Below, piece by piece: positions 4,900 to 26,536 of a DNA stretch of 26,811 nt. This stretch comes from a virus, in IMG/VR virus record IMGVR_UViG_3300020463_001342, positions 1 to 26,811 of that record; one strand, 5' to 3'. Each line of letters begins with the position of its first letter. The first letter of the stretch is position 1. Below the pieces are notes generated by a model. That model did not search any database. It saw only the letters and a list, made by a program, of their open reading frames with translations, and was not told the DNA's origin. A program made the translations under genes and the position numbers.

Positions 4900-5839
4900 A
4901 TTCTAATGCTCTGTCAGCTTCTTTCACCATATCACGGTTCTTATACCAACCACCCGTGACTCCATCAAACTCCTTACATAATGTTGCAACTTGTTCTGCG
5001 GTGATTGGATATCCTTTTGAAACTGCATTACCGCATGTTGCAACCATGATTTGATACATTTTATAGTACCAACCCGTTTCTGTAGTTGCACGATATTCTG
5101 TTTCAAGTTTCTTAGACCAAAACGGACAGTCAGAATATCCCGTCCAATTATAGTTTGTATTATTTAGTTTATTCTTACGATGGTCTACTACTGCTTTTTG
5201 TAATTCTGGTGGTAATCTATCTAGAAAGTTTTTACCCTTGTTTTCAATATAAGAATGTTTCTCCATCAACATTTGTGGGTCAAGAGTAATACCACTATTT
5301 CTAAAATAAAAGTTGAACGCATTTGGATATTGTGCGGGAACATAATACATTCTTGCAAGGTCTTTAGTTTGTTCGTCACCAATCTCTTTGAATTCTTTGT
5401 TCATTGCAAACCAGAAATGTGATAAATCTTTTGAGTAAACTTCTTTGGTCAATGGAAATACTAGACGGAACTTTGGTTTCTTAGTTGTTGAAGATGCGGT
5501 ACTGTAACAGACATATTCATATGCACCAAATAAATCATATAATTGTTTTGTTAATAAATCCAAATTAGTATGCTGAATATCAGATGCGCCGTCAAGTATA
5601 AAACTATCGCAATCAAGACAAGCCCAAGAACCCCATTTATTAACATTCTTATTACTTCTTGTCCCGTCTTTGTGAAAGATAGCAGGACTAATAAGAGCAG
5701 AACTATTATTTCCACCTTTTTCTCCTTTTTTATTTGACAATTCATACAGTAATAAACACATTTTATCCCATGACTGGAATTGCATAGACCTATGAGTTTT
5801 ATTGTCATAGGTATTTTTGAAAATGGTTAGACTATACAT
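4877..5839 (-). CDS. Putative DNA primase of the archaeo-eukaryotic (AEP) type
   Basis: 320 aa, in the place where a primase partner for gp41 is expected. It does not show the zinc ribbon and TOPRIM motifs of T4 gp61. It shows an AEP-like pattern: CLDCD (D76 and D78) as the metal-binding hDhD motif, YSTASSTTKKPKFRLVFPL (residues 112-130) at the place of the sxH motif with basic residues, and TKDLARMYYVPA (D160) as a likely third carboxylate. The histidine usual in the second motif is absent (SSTT). A C-terminal helical domain (residues 235-320) could be the helicase-contact or PriCT-like part. It would make primers for lagging-strand synthesis. Assignment rests on motif pattern, not on similarity search. 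Confidence 0.7.
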   Translation of the reverse strand: MYSLTIFKNTYDNKTHRSMQFQSWDKMCLLLYELSNKKGEKGGNNSSALISPAIFHKDGTRSNKNVNKWGSWACLDCDSFILDGASDIQHTNLDLLTKQLYDLFGAYEYVCYSTASSTTKKPKFRLVFPLTKEVYSKDLSHFWFAMNKEFKEIGDEQTKDLARMYYVPAQYPNAFNFYFRNSGITLDPQMLMEKHSYIENKGKNFLDRLPPELQKAVVDHRKNKLNNTNYNWTGYSDCPFWSKKLETEYRATTETGWYYKMYQIMVATCGNAVSKGYPITAEQVATLCKEFDGVTGGWYKNRDMVKEADRALEYVYRNRN

Positions 5840-5847
5840 TGTTGCAT

Positions 5848-5876
5848 ATTATACATGGTTTAACAAGAATTGTCAA
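5848..5876 (-). promoter_or_regulatory. Early sigma70-type promoter of the AEP-like primase gene
   Basis: On the minus strand, TTGACA (5876-5871), exactly 17 bp, then TATAAT (5853-5848). The primase ATG begins 8 nt after the -10 box, so the mRNA should have a leader of only 1-2 nt. The -35 box overlaps the stop codon of the small gene at 5873-6001. Confidence 0.85.
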
Positions 5877-6001
5877 TTGGAAGAGTCTTCCCAATGCATA
5901 CAACCTTGTTCTTTAAATATCTTGCGATATTTTTTCATCATTCTTTCGTGTCGTTTTTGTAATTCCTTTTCTTTCTTTGTTATCTTACCCAAACTTCGCA
6001 C
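5873..6001 (-). CDS. Possible 42-aa basic, helical protein
   Basis: A short reading frame starting with GTG at 6001 and ending at the -35 box of the next promoter. The product is rich in Lys/Arg/Glu (KKEKELQKRHERMMKKYRK), predicted as one long helix, ending EQGCMHWEDSSN. It overlaps the upstream small membrane protein gene by 17 nt in another frame. No Shine-Dalgarno is clear, and the start codon is not ATG; coupling to the overlapping gene would be needed. It fills a space that would otherwise be empty in a very compact region, which is the main support. Confidence 0.45.
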   Translation of the reverse strand: MRSLGKITKKEKELQKRHERMMKKYRKIFKEQGCMHWEDSSN

Positions 6002-16158: not shown

Positions 16159-17231
16159 GCGATAAATGTATTCAAATTGTTTTGGTGTGATTTAAAAGTT
16201 TCTATGGTTTTATCAATTGCATTTTCTATATGTTGTTTCCATGCATCTTGATTATGTTTTTCATAGGTCATTTCTTGTATTTCTTTTCTATCAACATTTT
16301 CAAAAGATTTTATTGCAGAAACAAGTGCGTCTTTATCATTCGTTGGTATTTTTTTATAATGACTCGGACTTGCTGGAATAATTTCAGATGCATGGTTTCC
16401 GTTTTTATAAGAGTTTAAAATTATTGGTATTCCACAAGACAAAGCTTCCATTGCAGTTATACCCCATGTTTCTCTATTCCAAGTAGAAAAAAATGTATTA
16501 CATTTTGAAATGTTTTTTATAACATCATCGTGTTTCAAATCCCAAACTGTATTATCCCAGTTTTTATTTTTTTCATAATATCGTGTATGGCCATCTATTT
16601 TTGCATTTGTTTTTTTAAATCGTACAGTAGAAGAAGACATCGCTGTGATAACCAATGTTTTTAAATCTGTATGTTTAGTCATGTGTTTTAATTTAAATGG
16701 TGATTTTCCTACATCACACCTACCGATAGTTCCACAATCATATTCACTATCTAGTATGTCTGGTTTCGTACAATATGAAGGTCGGATAATACCAAACGGA
16801 AGGAATTTACTTTTAGTATATTTTTTTATTTTATTATCGTACCATTCTCTTTGAAAATCAGATACGAGAAATAAAGAATGACCTTTCTTATGTAAATTTT
16901 CAAATCTTTGGTTGATAGATAGAAATGGATAAAAACAATGTTCAATACTCATTATTGGAATATGTGATTTAGATACAACTGAACCACAAAACGCACTCCA
17001 AGCAAAGTTATTCATTATGACATCTGCATTACATTCTTCTGCTTTGTTTATAATTTGTTGTTGCATTTGTTTTGTTCTTTCTTTATCAACTTCCATATGG
17101 TATTTAAAATATAAAACTTCTACATCAAAATTATTTTTTATTAACTTACAAAACATTTCTGTACCACCACTTACAGTAGAGTCAGTAATTCTTCTACCAT
17201 AAGGGTCTAAAAATGGTAATAGTATTTTCAT
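16155..17231 (-). CDS. Glycosyltransferase, GT-B fold, GT4-like
   Basis: 358 aa from the ATG at 17231, chosen because it forms an ATGA overlap with the upstream gene; a longer reading from 17270 lies inside that gene. The N-terminal MKILLPFLDPYGRR and VSGGTEMFCKLI match the first Rossmann strand and acceptor loop of GT-B enzymes. Residues IGRCDVGKSPFKLK begin the donor domain, and FSTWNRETWGITAMEALSCGIPIIL has the E-x7-E motif of retaining GT4-like enzymes. It ends overlapping the next glycosyltransferase. T4 carries DNA glucosyltransferases, but I see no specific similarity to them. Confidence 0.82.
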   Translation of the reverse strand: MKILLPFLDPYGRRITDSTVSGGTEMFCKLIKNNFDVEVLYFKYHMEVDKERTKQMQQQIINKAEECNADVIMNNFAWSAFCGSVVSKSHIPIMSIEHCFYPFLSINQRFENLHKKGHSLFLVSDFQREWYDNKIKKYTKSKFLPFGIIRPSYCTKPDILDSEYDCGTIGRCDVGKSPFKLKHMTKHTDLKTLVITAMSSSTVRFKKTNAKIDGHTRYYEKNKNWDNTVWDLKHDDVIKNISKCNTFFSTWNRETWGITAMEALSCGIPIILNSYKNGNHASEIIPASPSHYKKIPTNDKDALVSAIKSFENVDRKEIQEMTYEKHNQDAWKQHIENAIDKTIETFKSHQNNLNTFIA

Positions 17232-18340
17232 CTTATAATGTCTATTTTGTCCATATTTTCTTCGTTCCAAATCTCTGGTTCTTTTCGAACTCTACCTTCT
17301 GCAATCATTTTATCATATCTTTTGGTTGCATACTTTTTCCACCATGTGATTACATTCTCTAATTCAAATCTATCAAAGTTGACTGCTTTCTCTAGTGTCT
17401 CAGTTTTACCGAGTAAAACATCTTTTACATTTGCATATCCATACTCACTCATATAAAATCTTTTTTGTGTGGTCACATCACTTGCACCATTTATTTTATT
17501 GCAGAATAATTCATATGCTTTTTCATCATGTTGTTTCAGACTTGATTTTATAATCCCGACCATTTTGGTTTGCATTTTTAATTTACGACTTGATGCACCT
17601 TTGTGTATTAGTTCTTCCCCGCCATTCTTTTCCGTAAACCAATCACGCATTTCTGGATATATTTCGTCACCAAGTGTCAGTAAAAACTTAGACATAGTAT
17701 CTCCTTTGTATCTAAGGAAAGGTTTCATACCGTCATACATAGACGCACCTTTTATATTACCATACAAAGATGTCGTTTCAAATAAACAAAATTTAGTTTT
17801 GTATTTTTGGTTTAACATTCTGCGACTATCGTGCGAACAACAAATAGATGCAAGTAATTTACCACCAAGATAATTGAATCCAAAGGGTTGTACGGGAACT
17901 ATATTAAATCCCATGATTGCATGTTTGTTAAATATATCTAAATCTGGTGTTCCCCCGAGATAATCGTTTCTTGGTTTAGAGTTGATAAGTGGTGAACCAA
18001 AACGAATAAATCCTACAATAGTATTGGTGTTGGTTTCTTTAACTACCATCTTATGTGTCTTGCCTGGATTTTCATCTGGACTAAACGATGCAGTTTTTTC
18101 TAGTAGATTATCAAATAATTCCAGTGGTATTGATGTAACCTTAAAATCCATGTCTTGTGGATGCATATCATATGACTTAAACATTTCATCTTCGTCTGTA
18201 AATCCAAACAAAGGAGTTGGTAAGTTTTTAATTCTTTCTATTTTTCTTGCACGAAAATAATCGTCAATGCGATTGAAATCTTGGAAGTATTCAATAAATT
18301 TAGTTGCAGAATAGATTGCGTCTTCTTTATTTAATATCAT
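17228..18340 (-). CDS. DUF4338/DruA-like protein with GNAT-like core (tentative)
   Basis: 370 aa from the ATG at 18340; an upstream TTG reading (18400) starts in the promoter's -35 box and is rejected. The core pattern VGFIRFGSP, then MGFNIVPVQPFGFNYLGGKLLASI, then KYKTKFCLFETTSLYGNIKGASMYDGM resembles DUF4338, the family of Druantia protein DruA (motif order: GFG strand, NLAS/LGGKLLA helix, Y-x-LLETxxx-x-GxxY). The strand-helix layout also resembles an acyltransferase. A C-terminal domain (residues 225-370) is basic and helical. It is the first gene of the minus cluster leading to two glycosyltransferases and gp47. DruA has anti-phage roles in bacteria; why a phage would carry a relative is unknown. 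Confidence 0.6.
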   Translation of the reverse strand: MILNKEDAIYSATKFIEYFQDFNRIDDYFRARKIERIKNLPTPLFGFTDEDEMFKSYDMHPQDMDFKVTSIPLELFDNLLEKTASFSPDENPGKTHKMVVKETNTNTIVGFIRFGSPLINSKPRNDYLGGTPDLDIFNKHAIMGFNIVPVQPFGFNYLGGKLLASICCSHDSRRMLNQKYKTKFCLFETTSLYGNIKGASMYDGMKPFLRYKGDTMSKFLLTLGDEIYPEMRDWFTEKNGGEELIHKGASSRKLKMQTKMVGIIKSSLKQHDEKAYELFCNKINGASDVTTQKRFYMSEYGYANVKDVLLGKTETLEKAVNFDRFELENVITWWKKYATKRYDKMIAEGRVRKEPEIWNEENMDKIDIIR

Positions 18341-18371
18341 ATATAATATATAGCATTTTCCTATCTTGCAC

Positions 18372-18400
18372 ATTATACCTATCAAAACAACTAATGTCAA
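18372..18400 (-). promoter_or_regulatory. Early promoter for the DruA-like gene cluster
   Basis: Minus strand: TTGACA (18400-18395), 17 bp, TATAAT (18377-18372). The leader is about 25 nt to the ATG at 18340. It faces away from the late promoter at 18413-18420, which is only 12 bp from the -35 box. Confidence 0.85.
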
Positions 18401-18425: not shown

Positions 18426-18971
18426 ATGCCTATTAATACTACAAACATTACTACGCAAGTTGAAGACCAAGAACTAACGACTAATTTAAATTACTTGCAA
18501 CCCACTGGTTTTAAACTACTAATAGACCGTGCAAAGTATCCTAATCTAGAATACTTCTGTCAGTCCGTAGACCATCCTAGTGTCAGTGTAAATGAAGTAC
18601 CTTTACCAGTAAGAAGAATAACTTCTGTACCTTTGCCTGGCGACAAAATTACACATAACGAAATAGGATTTAATATTATTCTAGATGAAGAAATGACTGG
18701 ATATAATGAAATGTATAGTTGGTTGCAAAGATTAGTTAATGAAGCACAAGTGTCTCCCGTACAAAGAGATACAAAGTTTCCAACTTACGCAGATATTACA
18801 CTTATGATTTTATCGAGTCATAATAATGCAACTCAAAAAATTAAATACAATGACTGTCTACCTACTAATTTAGGTGGTATACAGTTTACCACAACAACTG
18901 GTAATGTGACCTATCTTACTTTTACTGCAAGTTTTAGGTTCTCTACCTTCGAAATAATTAAACAAACATGA
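18426..18971 (+). CDS. Tail tube-like structural protein (T4 gp19 fold)
   Basis: 181 aa. The C-terminal part, IKYNDCLPTNLGGIQF...YLTFTASFRF, lines up with the end of T4 tail tube protein gp19 (LWPTNVGELQL...FEVTLAL). The N-terminal part has LDR-like LQPTGFKLLIDRAKYPN and VPLPVRRITSVPLPGDK. gp19-type folds also occur in baseplate tube proteins gp48 and gp54, so it may be the main tube subunit or a baseplate paralogue. It is the first plus-strand gene, behind a late promoter as expected for structural proteins. No earlier in-frame start is possible (stop at 18405). It overlaps the next gene by 4 nt. Confidence 0.8.
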   Translation: MPINTTNITTQVEDQELTTNLNYLQPTGFKLLIDRAKYPNLEYFCQSVDHPSVSVNEVPLPVRRITSVPLPGDKITHNEIGFNIILDEEMTGYNEMYSWLQRLVNEAQVSPVQRDTKFPTYADITLMILSSHNNATQKIKYNDCLPTNLGGIQFTTTTGNVTYLTFTASFRFSTFEIIKQT

Positions 18972-20047
18972 AAATAATAAAAACAACAACTCCATTAGAT
19001 ACTGTAGAGTATGATGATGACTATCCACAAAATTTAGAACCTACAGATATTGTAGAAATATTTGAAACTCCTTTAACTGGTTCTTACAACTGGGACTACA
19101 CTGTCCAAGATAATCGTATAAAAAAATTATATGAGTTAGGAAAACAACTAAATTGGAATGCAGAAGTCGATGTAGATTGGACTCCAGAAATGATTGAAAC
19201 GCCTAAAGATGTATTTGAGTTTGAAGATAGTCAATGGGGTAAACATCCAGAATATAAAACTTGGGATAAGATGAGACGTAAAGAATTTTTACAAGACTTA
19301 AACAGTTGGTCAGTTAGTCAGTTTTTACATGGAGAACAAGGTGCATTGTTAGTTGCAAGTCAATTAGCATCATGCGCCCCTACCTTCAATGCAAAACTAT
19401 ATGCAGCTTCTCAGACCTTTGATGAAGCAAGACATGTTGAAGCATTCAATAAATATATACAAACTCGTTTAAGAAAAAGTTGGCCTGTGGGTCGTGCATT
19501 AAAAGGTTTATTAGATAAAATACTTACTGACCCTAGATGGGATTTAAAGTTTATTGGTATGCAAGTAGTAATTGAAGGACTTGCACTTGCAGCTTTTCAG
19601 GCTGCAAAAGATAATACTCGTGACCCAGTGTTTAAAGAAATGTTAGAATACATTATAAGAGACGAAGCACGTCATGTGACTTTTGGTATAAACTATCTTA
19701 CTGAGTTTGTACAAACATTGTCAGAAGAAGAACAAATAGATAGAGCTAAGTTTGCATTAGAAGCATGTACAGTGAGTAGAAATAGATTAAGACCATACGA
19801 TGTCTGGGAAATGTATGGAATGAACTTAGAGGAAACCGAAGAATATCAAAAGGAAGAAATTTTCCAAACACAATTTCAAGATGTATTGTTTAGTAGAATA
19901 ATGCCTAATCTCAAAAAAATAGGATTATTGCGAGACGAATTGATACCTGAATACGATAAACTAGGTGTTATGGGTTATGCAAAAGGCGATAGTGATTATG
20001 AAACAAGTTGGGAGGAACTTAGTAAACCGTTAAAGGAGGCGATATGA
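18968..20047 (+). CDS. Ferritin-like di-iron oxidase/oxygenase
   Basis: 359 aa. Four-helix di-iron carboxylate protein with a complete ligand set: E123 (HGEQGALL), E153 and H156 (FDEARHVEAF), E203 (VVIEGLALAAF), E233 and H236 (RDEARHVTFG). This E...DEARH...E...DEARH pattern fits R2-like oxidases, N-oxygenases and related ferritin-like enzymes, rather than a ribonucleotide reductase R2: the radical tyrosine position is not evident and the C-terminus lacks an R1-binding tail that I recognise. The substrate is unknown. It overlaps the tube gene (ATGA) and lies behind the late promoter at 18413, so it should be made late together with virion proteins. Confidence 0.82.
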   Translation: MKIIKTTTPLDTVEYDDDYPQNLEPTDIVEIFETPLTGSYNWDYTVQDNRIKKLYELGKQLNWNAEVDVDWTPEMIETPKDVFEFEDSQWGKHPEYKTWDKMRRKEFLQDLNSWSVSQFLHGEQGALLVASQLASCAPTFNAKLYAASQTFDEARHVEAFNKYIQTRLRKSWPVGRALKGLLDKILTDPRWDLKFIGMQVVIEGLALAAFQAAKDNTRDPVFKEMLEYIIRDEARHVTFGINYLTEFVQTLSEEEQIDRAKFALEACTVSRNRLRPYDVWEMYGMNLEETEEYQKEEIFQTQFQDVLFSRIMPNLKKIGLLRDELIPEYDKLGVMGYAKGDSDYETSWEELSKPLKEAI

Positions 20048-23506: not shown

Positions 23507-23568
23507 ATACTGAATACTGAATACGCCGCCCAAGGGGGGTGTATAGCTTAGGCTAGGTATTCAGACTT

Positions 23569-23705
23569 CGTTCATCTTATATTTTATATAAGACGGAAGT
23601 AGGAAAACTTGAAAACCTCTCACTATCCAGTGAGGCAAGCTAGTACCTTCTTTTTGGGTCAATAAATCCAGAAGGGAACGAGACCGACAGTTTACCGAAG
23701 GAACG
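23569..23705 (+). promoter_or_regulatory. Glutamine riboswitch (glnA / Downstream-peptide type) with enlarged P3
   Basis: The conserved core of the glutamine aptamer is present in order. P1 is CGTTC (23569-23573) with GAACG (23701-23705). P2 is TCTTATA (23575-23581) with TATAAGA (23587-23593). Then comes CGGAAGTAGG (23594-23603), the internal-loop signature. P3 is GG (23602-23603) plus AAACT (23605-23609) pairing with AGTTT (23689-23693) plus CC (23695-23696), followed by CCGAAGGAACG. The P3 loop is expanded to 79 nt and contains two hairpins: CTCAC/GTGAG (23619-23634) and CCTTCT/AGAAGG (23646-23675). Upstream, an 8-bp helix CTGAATAC/GTATTCAG (23517-23524 with 23557-23564) precedes the aptamer. 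Downstream, a GAAA-capped hairpin (23721-23734) leads to the ribosome site GGAGGG (23759-23764). Confidence 0.9.
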
Positions 23706-23771
23706 CTATGAGAAGGGTGTACAACGAAAGTTGTATGTACGAAATCGATTAGAAAACTGGAGGGCGAACCG

Positions 23772-24670: not shown

Positions 24671-24688
24671 GTCTTAAATAACAAAAAA

Positions 24689-24711
24689 CCCACTACAAGA
24701 GTGGGCTTTTT
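24689..24711. terminator. Bidirectional intrinsic terminator upstream of rpsU
   Basis: CCCACT (24689-24694) pairs with AGTGGG (24700-24705) around a 5-nt loop; six A precede the stem and five T follow after one C, so either strand gives stem plus U-tract. On the minus strand it ends transcription coming from the RNA and small gene region at 24712-25708. Confidence 0.85.
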
Positions 24712-24878
24712 GCCGTTCAGTAAGGTTTACTCGATTGTTGCAACAACTGTTTCAACCCCATCGTGACTGCTGTTATAAACTTCCTAATAAATATTGGATG
24801 ACGATATTCTCTTATTCACCCAGAATCCAATATAAAGTGTCCACGGACATCTAAATCTATATCATATTCAACTCACAC
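24712..24878 (-). other. Gene-free structured segment before the terminator
   Basis: No open frame of note. It contains a 9-bp inverted repeat ATATTGGAT (24791-24799) with ATCCAATAT (24825-24833), a palindrome TGTCC/GGACA (24838-24849) and TTGTTGCAACAA near 24740. These may form the 3' part of a long untranslated or noncoding transcript from 25702. Confidence 0.45.
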
Positions 24879-25181
24879 TTATAACTTATTCACATACTCT
24901 GTATATTGACATTGCCGAAAAATGTTCGGAATATTTATCGTTCTTCCGACTACTTCCATGGTAAACGCTGAGTCTCGTCTCTGTTTTTTTACCACTTTTC
25001 CACACACATTCAATATCTCATACCCCAGGCTTAATCTTTCACCCAGACCTCGTATATCACCACTACTTGAATTAGGTTGATAATCTCTTATCCTAATAGG
25101 AGTACAATAAAATCTGATTTTTTTACCACCAGATGCCCTCATTAGTTTCCATGTCAAGTCCCCTTTAGCAATTAAGACCAT
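24879..25181 (-). CDS. Uncertain 100-aa protein with foreign codon use
   Basis: Reading from the ATG at 25181 gives MVLIAKGDLTWKLMRASGGKK, then FYCTPIRIRDYQPNSSSGDI, and ends CQYTEYVNKL. GGAAAG lies 3 nt before the ATG, and a TATAAT with a TGG extension lies about 50 nt upstream at about 25229-25234. The codons are unlike those of the other genes here: CTG, AGG, CGG, GCG and GGG are frequent. It is therefore either a recently acquired gene or a chance open frame inside a noncoding RNA. No family is recognised. A longer reading from 25250 begins at a TTG next to the TATAAT and is less likely. Confidence 0.4.
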   Translation of the reverse strand: MVLIAKGDLTWKLMRASGGKKIRFYCTPIRIRDYQPNSSSGDIRGLGERLSLGYEILNVCGKVVKKQRRDSAFTMEVVGRTINIPNIFRQCQYTEYVNKL

Positions 25182-25251
25182 TAACTTTCCGAACACACCA
25201 AAAGAAATAAATAACTTTCTAGTACAGATTATACCAGATAATAACGTCAAT

Positions 25252-25702
25252 TTTCTAATTCAGTGTTTCTTCTACTTCGTTCAGTGGTTCGACCCACGGT
25301 CTCCAATCTTTACAAGGAGACGAACAAAGTACGGCAATAGTTAAATCAGGGTAGTGAAGTAGTTATTGGTTTTATTGAGTATTCCCACAATAAGGAACGA
25401 CCCTTCGGTCAAGAAGGACTCTCACCACATGCTTCATCACATGACTCTACGAATTACAATAAGTCTTATGCTCTGTTTACTTTATCAATAGACAGTTTGG
25501 ATAGTTTAACCAATTCAGCTACTGGATTGAACCAGGCGGGACTCGAACCCGCATACTTCCACGACTTTTGAACTTTGTGACTGTTTTAATGGTAAAAAAC
25601 CCCGAAGGTGTCATATGGACTAAATCCGTACCAAGTAGGGTTTCTCTAATTTTTAAGTGTTCGCACCTCTCAAGCACACTTATAATTTATTCACTAAATT
25701 AT
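25252..25702 (-). ncRNA. Candidate structured RNA with tRNA T-arm-like hairpin
   Basis: A promoter at 25709-25737 leads into about 450 nt without a convincing gene but with many helices, and with higher GC than the surrounding genes. In minus order: ATAATTTA/TAAATTAT hairpin at the 5' end; AAGTGT/ACACTT; AAACCC/GGGTTT around a TTCG-containing element; a canonical T-arm GCGGG-TTCGAGT-CCCGC (25552-25536); CTGG/CCAG directly after it; D-arm-like GTAGCTGAATTGG; GACC-GAAG-GGTC; and a 7-bp helix CTACTTC/GAAGTAG (25362-25356 with 25278-25272) enclosing GTCTCC/GGAGAC (25321-25316 with 25304-25299). T-arm before D-arm is the order of permuted tmRNA or tRNA, but no full acceptor or tag could be assembled. 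The 3' end may extend to the terminator at 24711. Confidence 0.6.
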
Positions 25703-25708
25703 GTATGT

Positions 25709-25737
25709 ATTATATAGTAGTTTACATACTTTGTCAA
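25709..25737 (-). promoter_or_regulatory. Early promoter of the structured RNA
   Basis: Minus strand: TTGACA (25737-25732), 17 bp, TATAAT (25714-25709). Start expected near 25702. Confidence 0.85.
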
Positions 25738-25776
25738 ATGTTTTTTTAGACTTTATTGTTATAAGAACAAGTATTA

Positions 25777-26109
25777 TTAGAACTGTACCGAAACTCCACA
25801 ACCGCAAGAGGCTATTTCATTTGGATTAATAATCTTAAAGAATTCATTTAATCCTTCTCTTTGATAGTCCAAAGTAGAACCATTAAGAAAAGGTAAACTA
25901 ATATCATCTACGACAATTTTAAATTTACCGTAATCTACCACATTATCGTTTGGAGAGATATTATTGGTGTACTCAATAACATATTCATACCCAGAACAAC
26001 CACCACCAGTGACACCAAGACGAATATTACTTTCTTCGGGAGTAAACTCTCGACATCGTTCAATAGATTTTTTAATCGCTTCATTCGTTAATTCAATATC
26101 CATATCCAT
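25777..26109 (-). CDS. iscA: A-type Fe-S carrier protein (IscA/ErpA/SufA-like)
   Basis: 110 aa from the ATG at 26109 (MDMDIELTNEAIKK), the usual size. It carries or inserts Fe-S clusters. The three invariant cysteines are present: one in VTGGGCSGYEYVIEY and two in the C-terminal SCGCGVSVQF. The dimer region with VVDDISLPFLNGSTLDY is typical (the family has V-D-x-x-S-x-x-x-L-x-G-x-x-x-D). The ATG lies inside the 3' end of the scaffold gene, overlapping by 17 nt, so the pair is translated together; ATG 26103 is an equally possible start. A much longer reading from 26196 lies wholly within iscU and is rejected. Confidence 0.93.
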   Translation of the reverse strand: MDMDIELTNEAIKKSIERCREFTPEESNIRLGVTGGGCSGYEYVIEYTNNISPNDNVVDYGKFKIVVDDISLPFLNGSTLDYQREGLNEFFKIINPNEIASCGCGVSVQF

Positions 26110-26536
26110 TCGGGTCTTCCCACACTTGATTGTGTTTTCTATGTTTAGTTTTCTCTTCCCAATTTTCAATTGCCTTCTTAATACCTTCTTCTGCAAGAAC
26201 AGAACAATGTAATTTAATAGGTGGTAATTCTAATGCTTCTGCAATCTCTTTATCTTTTATTTGTTTTGCTTCTTCGATAGTTTTACCTTTTAACATTTCA
26301 ACAAACATCGTAGAAGATGCGATTGCACTTCCGCACCCATAAGTTTTGAATTTAACATCTGCAATAACATCACCTTCTAGTTTAAGGTCTAGTTTCATTA
26401 CATCACCACACGCAGGCGCACCTACCAACCCAGTTGCAACATTAGGGTCGTTAGGGTCAAATCTACCCACACCATGTGATTTAGGATTTTTAAGAACATC
26501 CTCAAATCTGTCTACTACTTTATTACTATATGCCAT
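26093..26536 (-). CDS. iscU: Fe-S cluster scaffold protein IscU
   Basis: 147 aa (bacterial IscU is about 128). It assembles [2Fe-2S] clusters from sulfide supplied by a cysteine desulfurase and iron. Conserved: VVDRFEDVLKNPKSHG at the N-terminus, the three cluster cysteines in GAPACGDVMKL, YGCGSAIASS and LHCSVLAEE, and the aspartate next to the first cysteine. An LPPIKLHC segment sits where IscU has the LPPVK(M)HC chaperone-binding motif for HscA. Extra residues at the C-terminus (KHRKHNQVWEDPNGYGY) are not usual. A late box lies 5 nt before the ATG. No desulfurase or chaperone gene is in the window, so host partners are presumably used. Confidence 0.95.
   Translation of the reverse strand: MAYSNKVVDRFEDVLKNPKSHGVGRFDPNDPNVATGLVGAPACGDVMKLDLKLEGDVIADVKFKTYGCGSAIASSTMFVEMLKGKTIEEAKQIKDKEIAEALELPPIKLHCSVLAEEGIKKAIENWEEKTKHRKHNQVWEDPNGYGY

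Follow-up and report, generated by a model that had tools for sequence, protein, structure and literature searches.

The window analysed here, the whole 26,811-nucleotide stretch of IMG/VR record IMGVR_UViG_3300020463_001342, carries on its minus strand a large noncoding RNA gene in the interval between the genes for IscA and bS21 (Table 1). A preliminary description made from the letters alone had placed a promoter-driven, gene-free and GC-richer region at 25252–25702; the promoter and the lack of genes are confirmed, but the RNA extends to about 24683 and measures ~1,020 nt rather than 451, and the rise in GC content, right in direction, is only slight (37% vs. about 33%). The longest ORF (24879–25250, minus strand, 123 aa) is interrupted by frameshifts or stop codons in relatives, and a protein-coding origin was rejected because of this disruption; judged by comparison of the homologous sequences, the ~1-kb element is noncoding and is maintained at the RNA level. 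The description of a structured, promoter-driven noncoding RNA in a marine phage was thus correct. A promoter-like pair also lies upstream of the RNA core, at a similar distance, in most homologues with upstream sequence present. The intrinsic terminator occurs in clades A and B', and L252 and L255 carry a terminator resembling that of the window.

Table 1. Features of the RNA locus in window coordinates.
Feature	Position	Strand	Remarks
Whole large noncoding RNA, ~1,020 nt	24683..25702	-	Colinear homologues in 35 other IMG/VR contigs; no conserved ORF; 19 covarying helices
Sigma-70-type promoter TTGACA-N17-TATAAT	25709..25737	-	12/12 consensus letters; start site about 25702
5' domain	25590..25680	-	Covariation
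5' domain stem	25680-25677/25659-25656	-	
5' domain pseudoknot strand	about 25670-25665 with 25642-25637	-	
5' domain hairpin	25633-25629/25594-25590	-	
Core	24715..25573	-	Terminal stem GTTC (25573-25570)/GAAC (24718-24715)
tRNA-like module	25499..25560	-	Enclosed by outer stem 25560-25556/25503-25499
T-arm GCGGG-TTCGAGT-CCCGC	25536..25552	-	Covarying five-pair stem
Sealed acceptor-like hairpin CTGG-TTCAAT-CCAG	25522..25535	-	Pairing kept despite full stem replacement
D-strand	25510..25521	-	U8 25521, R9, GCTG 25519-25516, A14 25515, G18G19 25511-25510
Long-range helix 25492-25486/24864-24858	24858..25492	-	7 bp, 3 covarying pairs
Near-invariant motif GCATAAGACTTATTGTAATTCGTAGAGT	25444..25471	-	28 nt nearly identical in all clades
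Three-way junction, helix around two hairpins	25271..25331	-	Refolds in clade A and B copies
Helix 24833-24825/24799-24791	24791..24833	-	8-9 bp, 2-3 covarying pairs
Distal D-stem 3' strand CAGC	24769..24772	-	~750 nt downstream of GCTG; 3/4 pairs covary
Helix 24760-24754/24727-24721	24721..24760	-	Strongest covariation of all helices, double changes in up to 4 pairs
Intrinsic terminator CCCACT-CTTGT-AGTGGG-TTTTTT	24683..24710	-	Sequence reading

At gathering thresholds, Rfam recognises in the window only a glutamine riboswitch (23567–23709, plus strand, 45 bits), which lies upstream of a small ORF from 23774 that starts with MYYRGIKQTPENT and contains a repeated YRGxKH motif; in the OM43 phage Melnitz, this riboswitch class adjoins the tmRNA instead. 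Compared with L001, the region 25777–26536 encodes an identical IscU and an IscA of only 71% identity, which marks a mosaic breakpoint inside the Fe–S gene pair. A gene for an AurF/ferritin-like di-iron protein (18968–20047, plus strand) resides within the T4-like phage core-gene region, and the protein encoded at 17228–18400 (minus strand) has a weak DruA (Druantia) match, slightly below the Pfam cut-off.

Among the nearest relatives (L001, L002, L003, and L082), the IscA-to-bS21 interval is ~95% or better identical where present. In L004, L005, L013, L020, L086, and L090, only ~60 nt separate IscA from bS21, which has its own promoter, and the absence of the RNA from these near relatives indicates that it is a self-contained cassette. 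At the same junction, L038 carries a different, small ORF-like insert (around 5740–5960), marking the junction as a cargo spot. Divergent full-length copies of the RNA are found in the 146-kb contig G010 and in G024. The output of a first pattern scan was swamped by tandem tRNAs; in scans of IMG/VR, the pattern GAGGGCATCTGGTGGTAA recovered 25 contigs, 23 of them homologous, and GCATAAGACTTATNGTAA recovered 37 (34 homologous), while a third pattern, combining the 5' closing strand with the T-arm, returned 34 contigs, all previously recovered members. Five contigs that carry a probe pattern (L237, L253, L260, L270, and L271) were rejected as homologues. As the three DNA-pattern scans converge, the family in IMG/VR comprises little beyond the window and 35 further contigs. 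Full-length copies are colinear at identities down to 55% and fall into clades A (which includes the window), A' (L249 and L238), B, and C, with A and C 55–58% identical.

The RNA resides in T4-like phages as well as in at least one lineage of DNA-polymerase-A phages. The gp23 of the 146-kb phage is 68.5% identical to that of Melnitz and 64% identical to that of Pelagibacter phage HTVC008M, and in L249 the RNA adjoins a family-A DNA polymerase gene. The gene contexts, at least six in number, have no neighbour gene in common, which makes a host partner, or action by the RNA alone, likelier than a dedicated phage protein; tRNA genes are mostly missing from the vicinity. In the clade C contigs L263 (6370–6816), L258, L259, and L265, a gene for a HAD/PNKP-type polynucleotide phosphatase lies directly upstream, a possible link to RNA repair.

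Among isolate phages, a blastn search of 50,697 phage records, with representatives of three clades as queries, returned only tRNA-type T-arm or chance matches. CM R1 gave weak scores in HTVC008M, Mosig, C48C1, and ICP1 alone and no score in Melnitz; Mosig (24 bits, E=0.026) was inspected and not accepted as a member, and the ~800-nt ncRNA of ICP1 (NC_015157, 80097–81107) does not match the family above noise. Isolate phages of the annotated collection are without a recognisable copy. Bacterial genomes yielded three chance pattern matches, without the RNA. In Rfam 15, no family model reaches its cut-off on the RNA, and no paper describing the RNA was found in the open literature. The element is best assigned to a previously undescribed family among the large ornate RNAs of phages, one with a fair chance of deserving a class of its own.

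The fold is well supported by comparison of the homologous sequences. Six helices, with 21 pairs in all, were followed through 19 sequences: the positions are paired in 99.2% of cases, 12 of the pairs change on both sides, and the same data contain 53 double-change cells compared with 15.9 ± 3.3 in shuffles; when the partner strand is slid out of register, pairing falls to 28–49%. Helices of at least four pairs were also compared with a tree-based phylogenetic null that preserves per-branch substitution counts (60 simulations): 19 helices have at least two covarying pairs, where the null gives 0.8 on average and at most 4, and six have at least three, against 0.017. Covariation among marine phage relatives, which the preliminary description had named as a check, is thus found. 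In an APC-corrected G-test of single pairs, none reached significance, probably owing to few deep splits and hence low power, and the helix-level test was used instead.

Most homologues close the core with a terminal stem of 7 bp (GAAGTTC/GAACTTC or AAAGTTC/GAACTTT), the window copy with one of only 4 bp; the first pair of the stem switches between G-C and A-U in clade A' and in L266/L272, and the core, closing stem included, measures 812–890 nt in copies with both ends. The 5' domain, which lies outside the core, is exchanged for unrelated sequence in L249 and L238, which retain the core. This exchange marks the 5' domain as modular; in L238, a perfect promoter lies upstream of the RNA. The 7-bp helix described earlier as enclosing two hairpins is real, and the resulting three-way junction is retained in local folds of clade A and B copies despite replacement of both hairpins.

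Within the core, a stem-enclosed module presents the elements of a tRNA elbow in the order T-arm, acceptor-like stem, U8, 5' strand of the D-stem, A14, and G18G19, the tRNA position numbers being assigned by analogy in the present analysis. The outer stem covaries (GGAAG/TATCC, GAGAG/CTCTT, GAGAG/CTTTC), as does the T-arm stem (GCGGG/CCCGC, GTGGG/CCCAC, ACAGG/CCTGT, GCAGG/CCTGC), and the T-loop reads TTCRANT in all copies with the segment. The acceptor-like hairpin follows the T-arm directly, as had been noted, and a short loop seals it in all copies, leaving no free acceptor end, even where its stem is rewritten (CTGT/ACAG, CTGTAC/GTACAG, CATAAC/GTTGTG, CACAC/GTGTG). T8, R9, G10, A14, R15 (A or G), and G18G19 are present in every homologue with the segment. 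With core letters kept and stems changing on both sides, the permuted order of T-arm and D-arm stands beyond chance. The D-arm-like GTAGCTGAATTGG is likewise present (25522–25510, minus strand), but it is not closed locally as had been described: the D-stem 5' strand, four letters starting at G10, has no local partner and pairs with the distal strand. This pairing switches from GCTG/CAGC in clades A and A' to GAGA/TCTC in B and C; the switch is a single deep split rather than many, and the sequence support for the D-stem can be called strong but not overwhelming.

A divergent permuted tmRNA was among the readings proposed earlier, on account of the order of T-arm and D-arm, and related marine phages, including Melnitz, do encode a permuted, two-piece tmRNA (PMC9004378). 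This reading is strongly disfavoured, to the point of being extremely improbable. ARAGORN calls no tRNA or tmRNA in the whole window, and a permissive Rfam scan of 24700–25800, extended to E=10, lists neither tmRNA nor GOLLD, whereas the same tools detect the permuted tmRNA of Melnitz (E=4e-23 and 6.6e-30; ARAGORN tag ANDNYVPVDYALAA). The RNA shares with the two-piece tmRNAs (RF01849/RF04321) a T-arm encoded ahead of the D-arm, a marine phage origin, and a promoter, but it lacks the CCA, the removable intervening segment, the SsrA tag, and a model match, and its acceptor-like stem is sealed in every copy. A candidate tag ORF, NKTNNYFTTLI, was rejected, as the stop codon of its frame is not kept in clade B.

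The closest known counterpart of the module, absent from the preliminary description, is the bacterial Y RNA YrlA (RF02553), the best permissive Rfam match (27.4 bits, E=0.0019), which falls exactly on the T-arm, hairpin, and D-strand elements and on the same place in other copies; sub-threshold matches to Group II D1–D4, tRNA, and snoRNA models were put down to chance or to the shared T-arm. T-arm, sealed acceptor-like stem, and D-arm follow in the order identical to YrlA, the tRNA-core identities agree, and both modules are enclosed by a stem. An enlarged YrlA that tethers Rsr/Ro60 to PNPase would account for this likeness, but it is very improbable: the scores in three clades (27.4, 19.7, and 21.5 bits) lie far under the 69-bit gathering cut-off, the model responds to tandem tRNAs as well and scores in 12 of 14 control genomes, and no Ro60/Rsr (TROVE) gene occurs in 15 phage records, mostly fragments, which include the 146-kb phage and Melnitz. 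The phage-borne RNA is, moreover, about 10 times longer (about 1,020 nt vs. 90–150 nt) and closes its D-stem over ~750 nt. In YrlA, TruB and DusA modify the tRNA-like domain, which also binds PNPase (PMC8394870).

The function inferred for the RNA is that of a stand-alone, ~1.0-kb structured phage RNA whose permuted tRNA elbow docks a host elbow-binding factor, a reading that is somewhat favoured. By analogy with YrlA, the elbow copy probably serves to hold on to a host factor whose usual partners are tRNAs. The sequence supports a sigma-70-type promoter of the RNA's own and, in most copies, a fold closed by pairing of the two ends. The permuted core may then display the elbow to the ribosome or to an enzyme that degrades, processes, or modifies RNA, such as PNPase, RNase P, TruB, or DusA, the remainder of the RNA would act as a scaffold or cage, and the particle would redirect or sequester the docked factor early in infection. 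Lacking a CCA, an anticodon, and a free acceptor end, the RNA is presumably neither aminoacylated nor decoded. The 4-bp closing stem of the window copy and the origin of the D-stem switch in one deep split weigh against this reading. An elbow without anticodon or acceptor end would also suit a decoy that titrates nucleases or modification enzymes, aimed at host defences that target tRNAs or at tRNA enzymes, and so would the patchy, cassette-like presence and the early-type promoter; however, it is not obvious why a decoy should require ~1 kb of conserved structure, nothing points to a particular target, and this role is improbable.

To our knowledge, very few RNAs are as large and as complex in structure, and what the phage-borne ones among them, GOLLD and ROOL, do is unsolved. 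The combination of giant size with a recognisable tRNA-elbow docking surface therefore provides a testable handle on the roles of giant phage RNAs, here with a tRNA core that is both permuted and sealed and extends over ~750 nt, in relatives of the phages of SAR11 and OM43 bacteria. More tentatively, and with the balance slightly against it, the family may represent a new class of RNA particle, in which an end-sealed, circularly permuted tRNA core is part of a giant fold and the whole, a tRNA mimic or a cage, traps host machinery that handles tRNAs.

Among the known large RNAs, OLE is likewise large and ornate, and bS21, whose gene lies directly downstream of the window RNA, is a component of the OLE RNP (PMC12054373). 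The OLE model gives no match in Rfam scans of three clades and the bS21 adjacency is confined to clade A, so that an OLE-type connection, drawn by analogy, is a lead and not evidence.

T-loop/D-loop elbows can be purely structural, and the RNA might instead be a GOLLD/ROOL-like homo-oligomer or cage made of RNA only, in which the tRNA-like core serves for internal packing and engages no host factor. Its similar size, phage origin, lack of a conserved protein neighbour, and extensive long-range helices are in keeping with such a particle, as are the nanocages into which GOLLD and ROOL assemble (PMC12286853). This alternative is nevertheless unlikely: U8, A14, G18G19, and C56 are kept beyond the needs of a simple T-loop, a retention of tRNA identity positions that suggests recognition, and there is neither GOLLD homology nor an Rfam match. 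The earlier suggestion of a tRNA mimic, or of a large phage RNA such as GOLLD, was close in kind, but the GOLLD model (conserved 3' half) is not matched and is also absent from the permissive Rfam results in three clades. Like GOLLD (RF02032) and ROOL, the RNA is large, highly structured, phage-encoded, and without a conserved protein partner. It matches neither of them in sequence or model, and, whereas tRNAs sometimes sit in the GOLLD linker (PMC12286853), it mostly lacks adjoining tRNA genes and instead carries a permuted tRNA core as an integral part of its fold.
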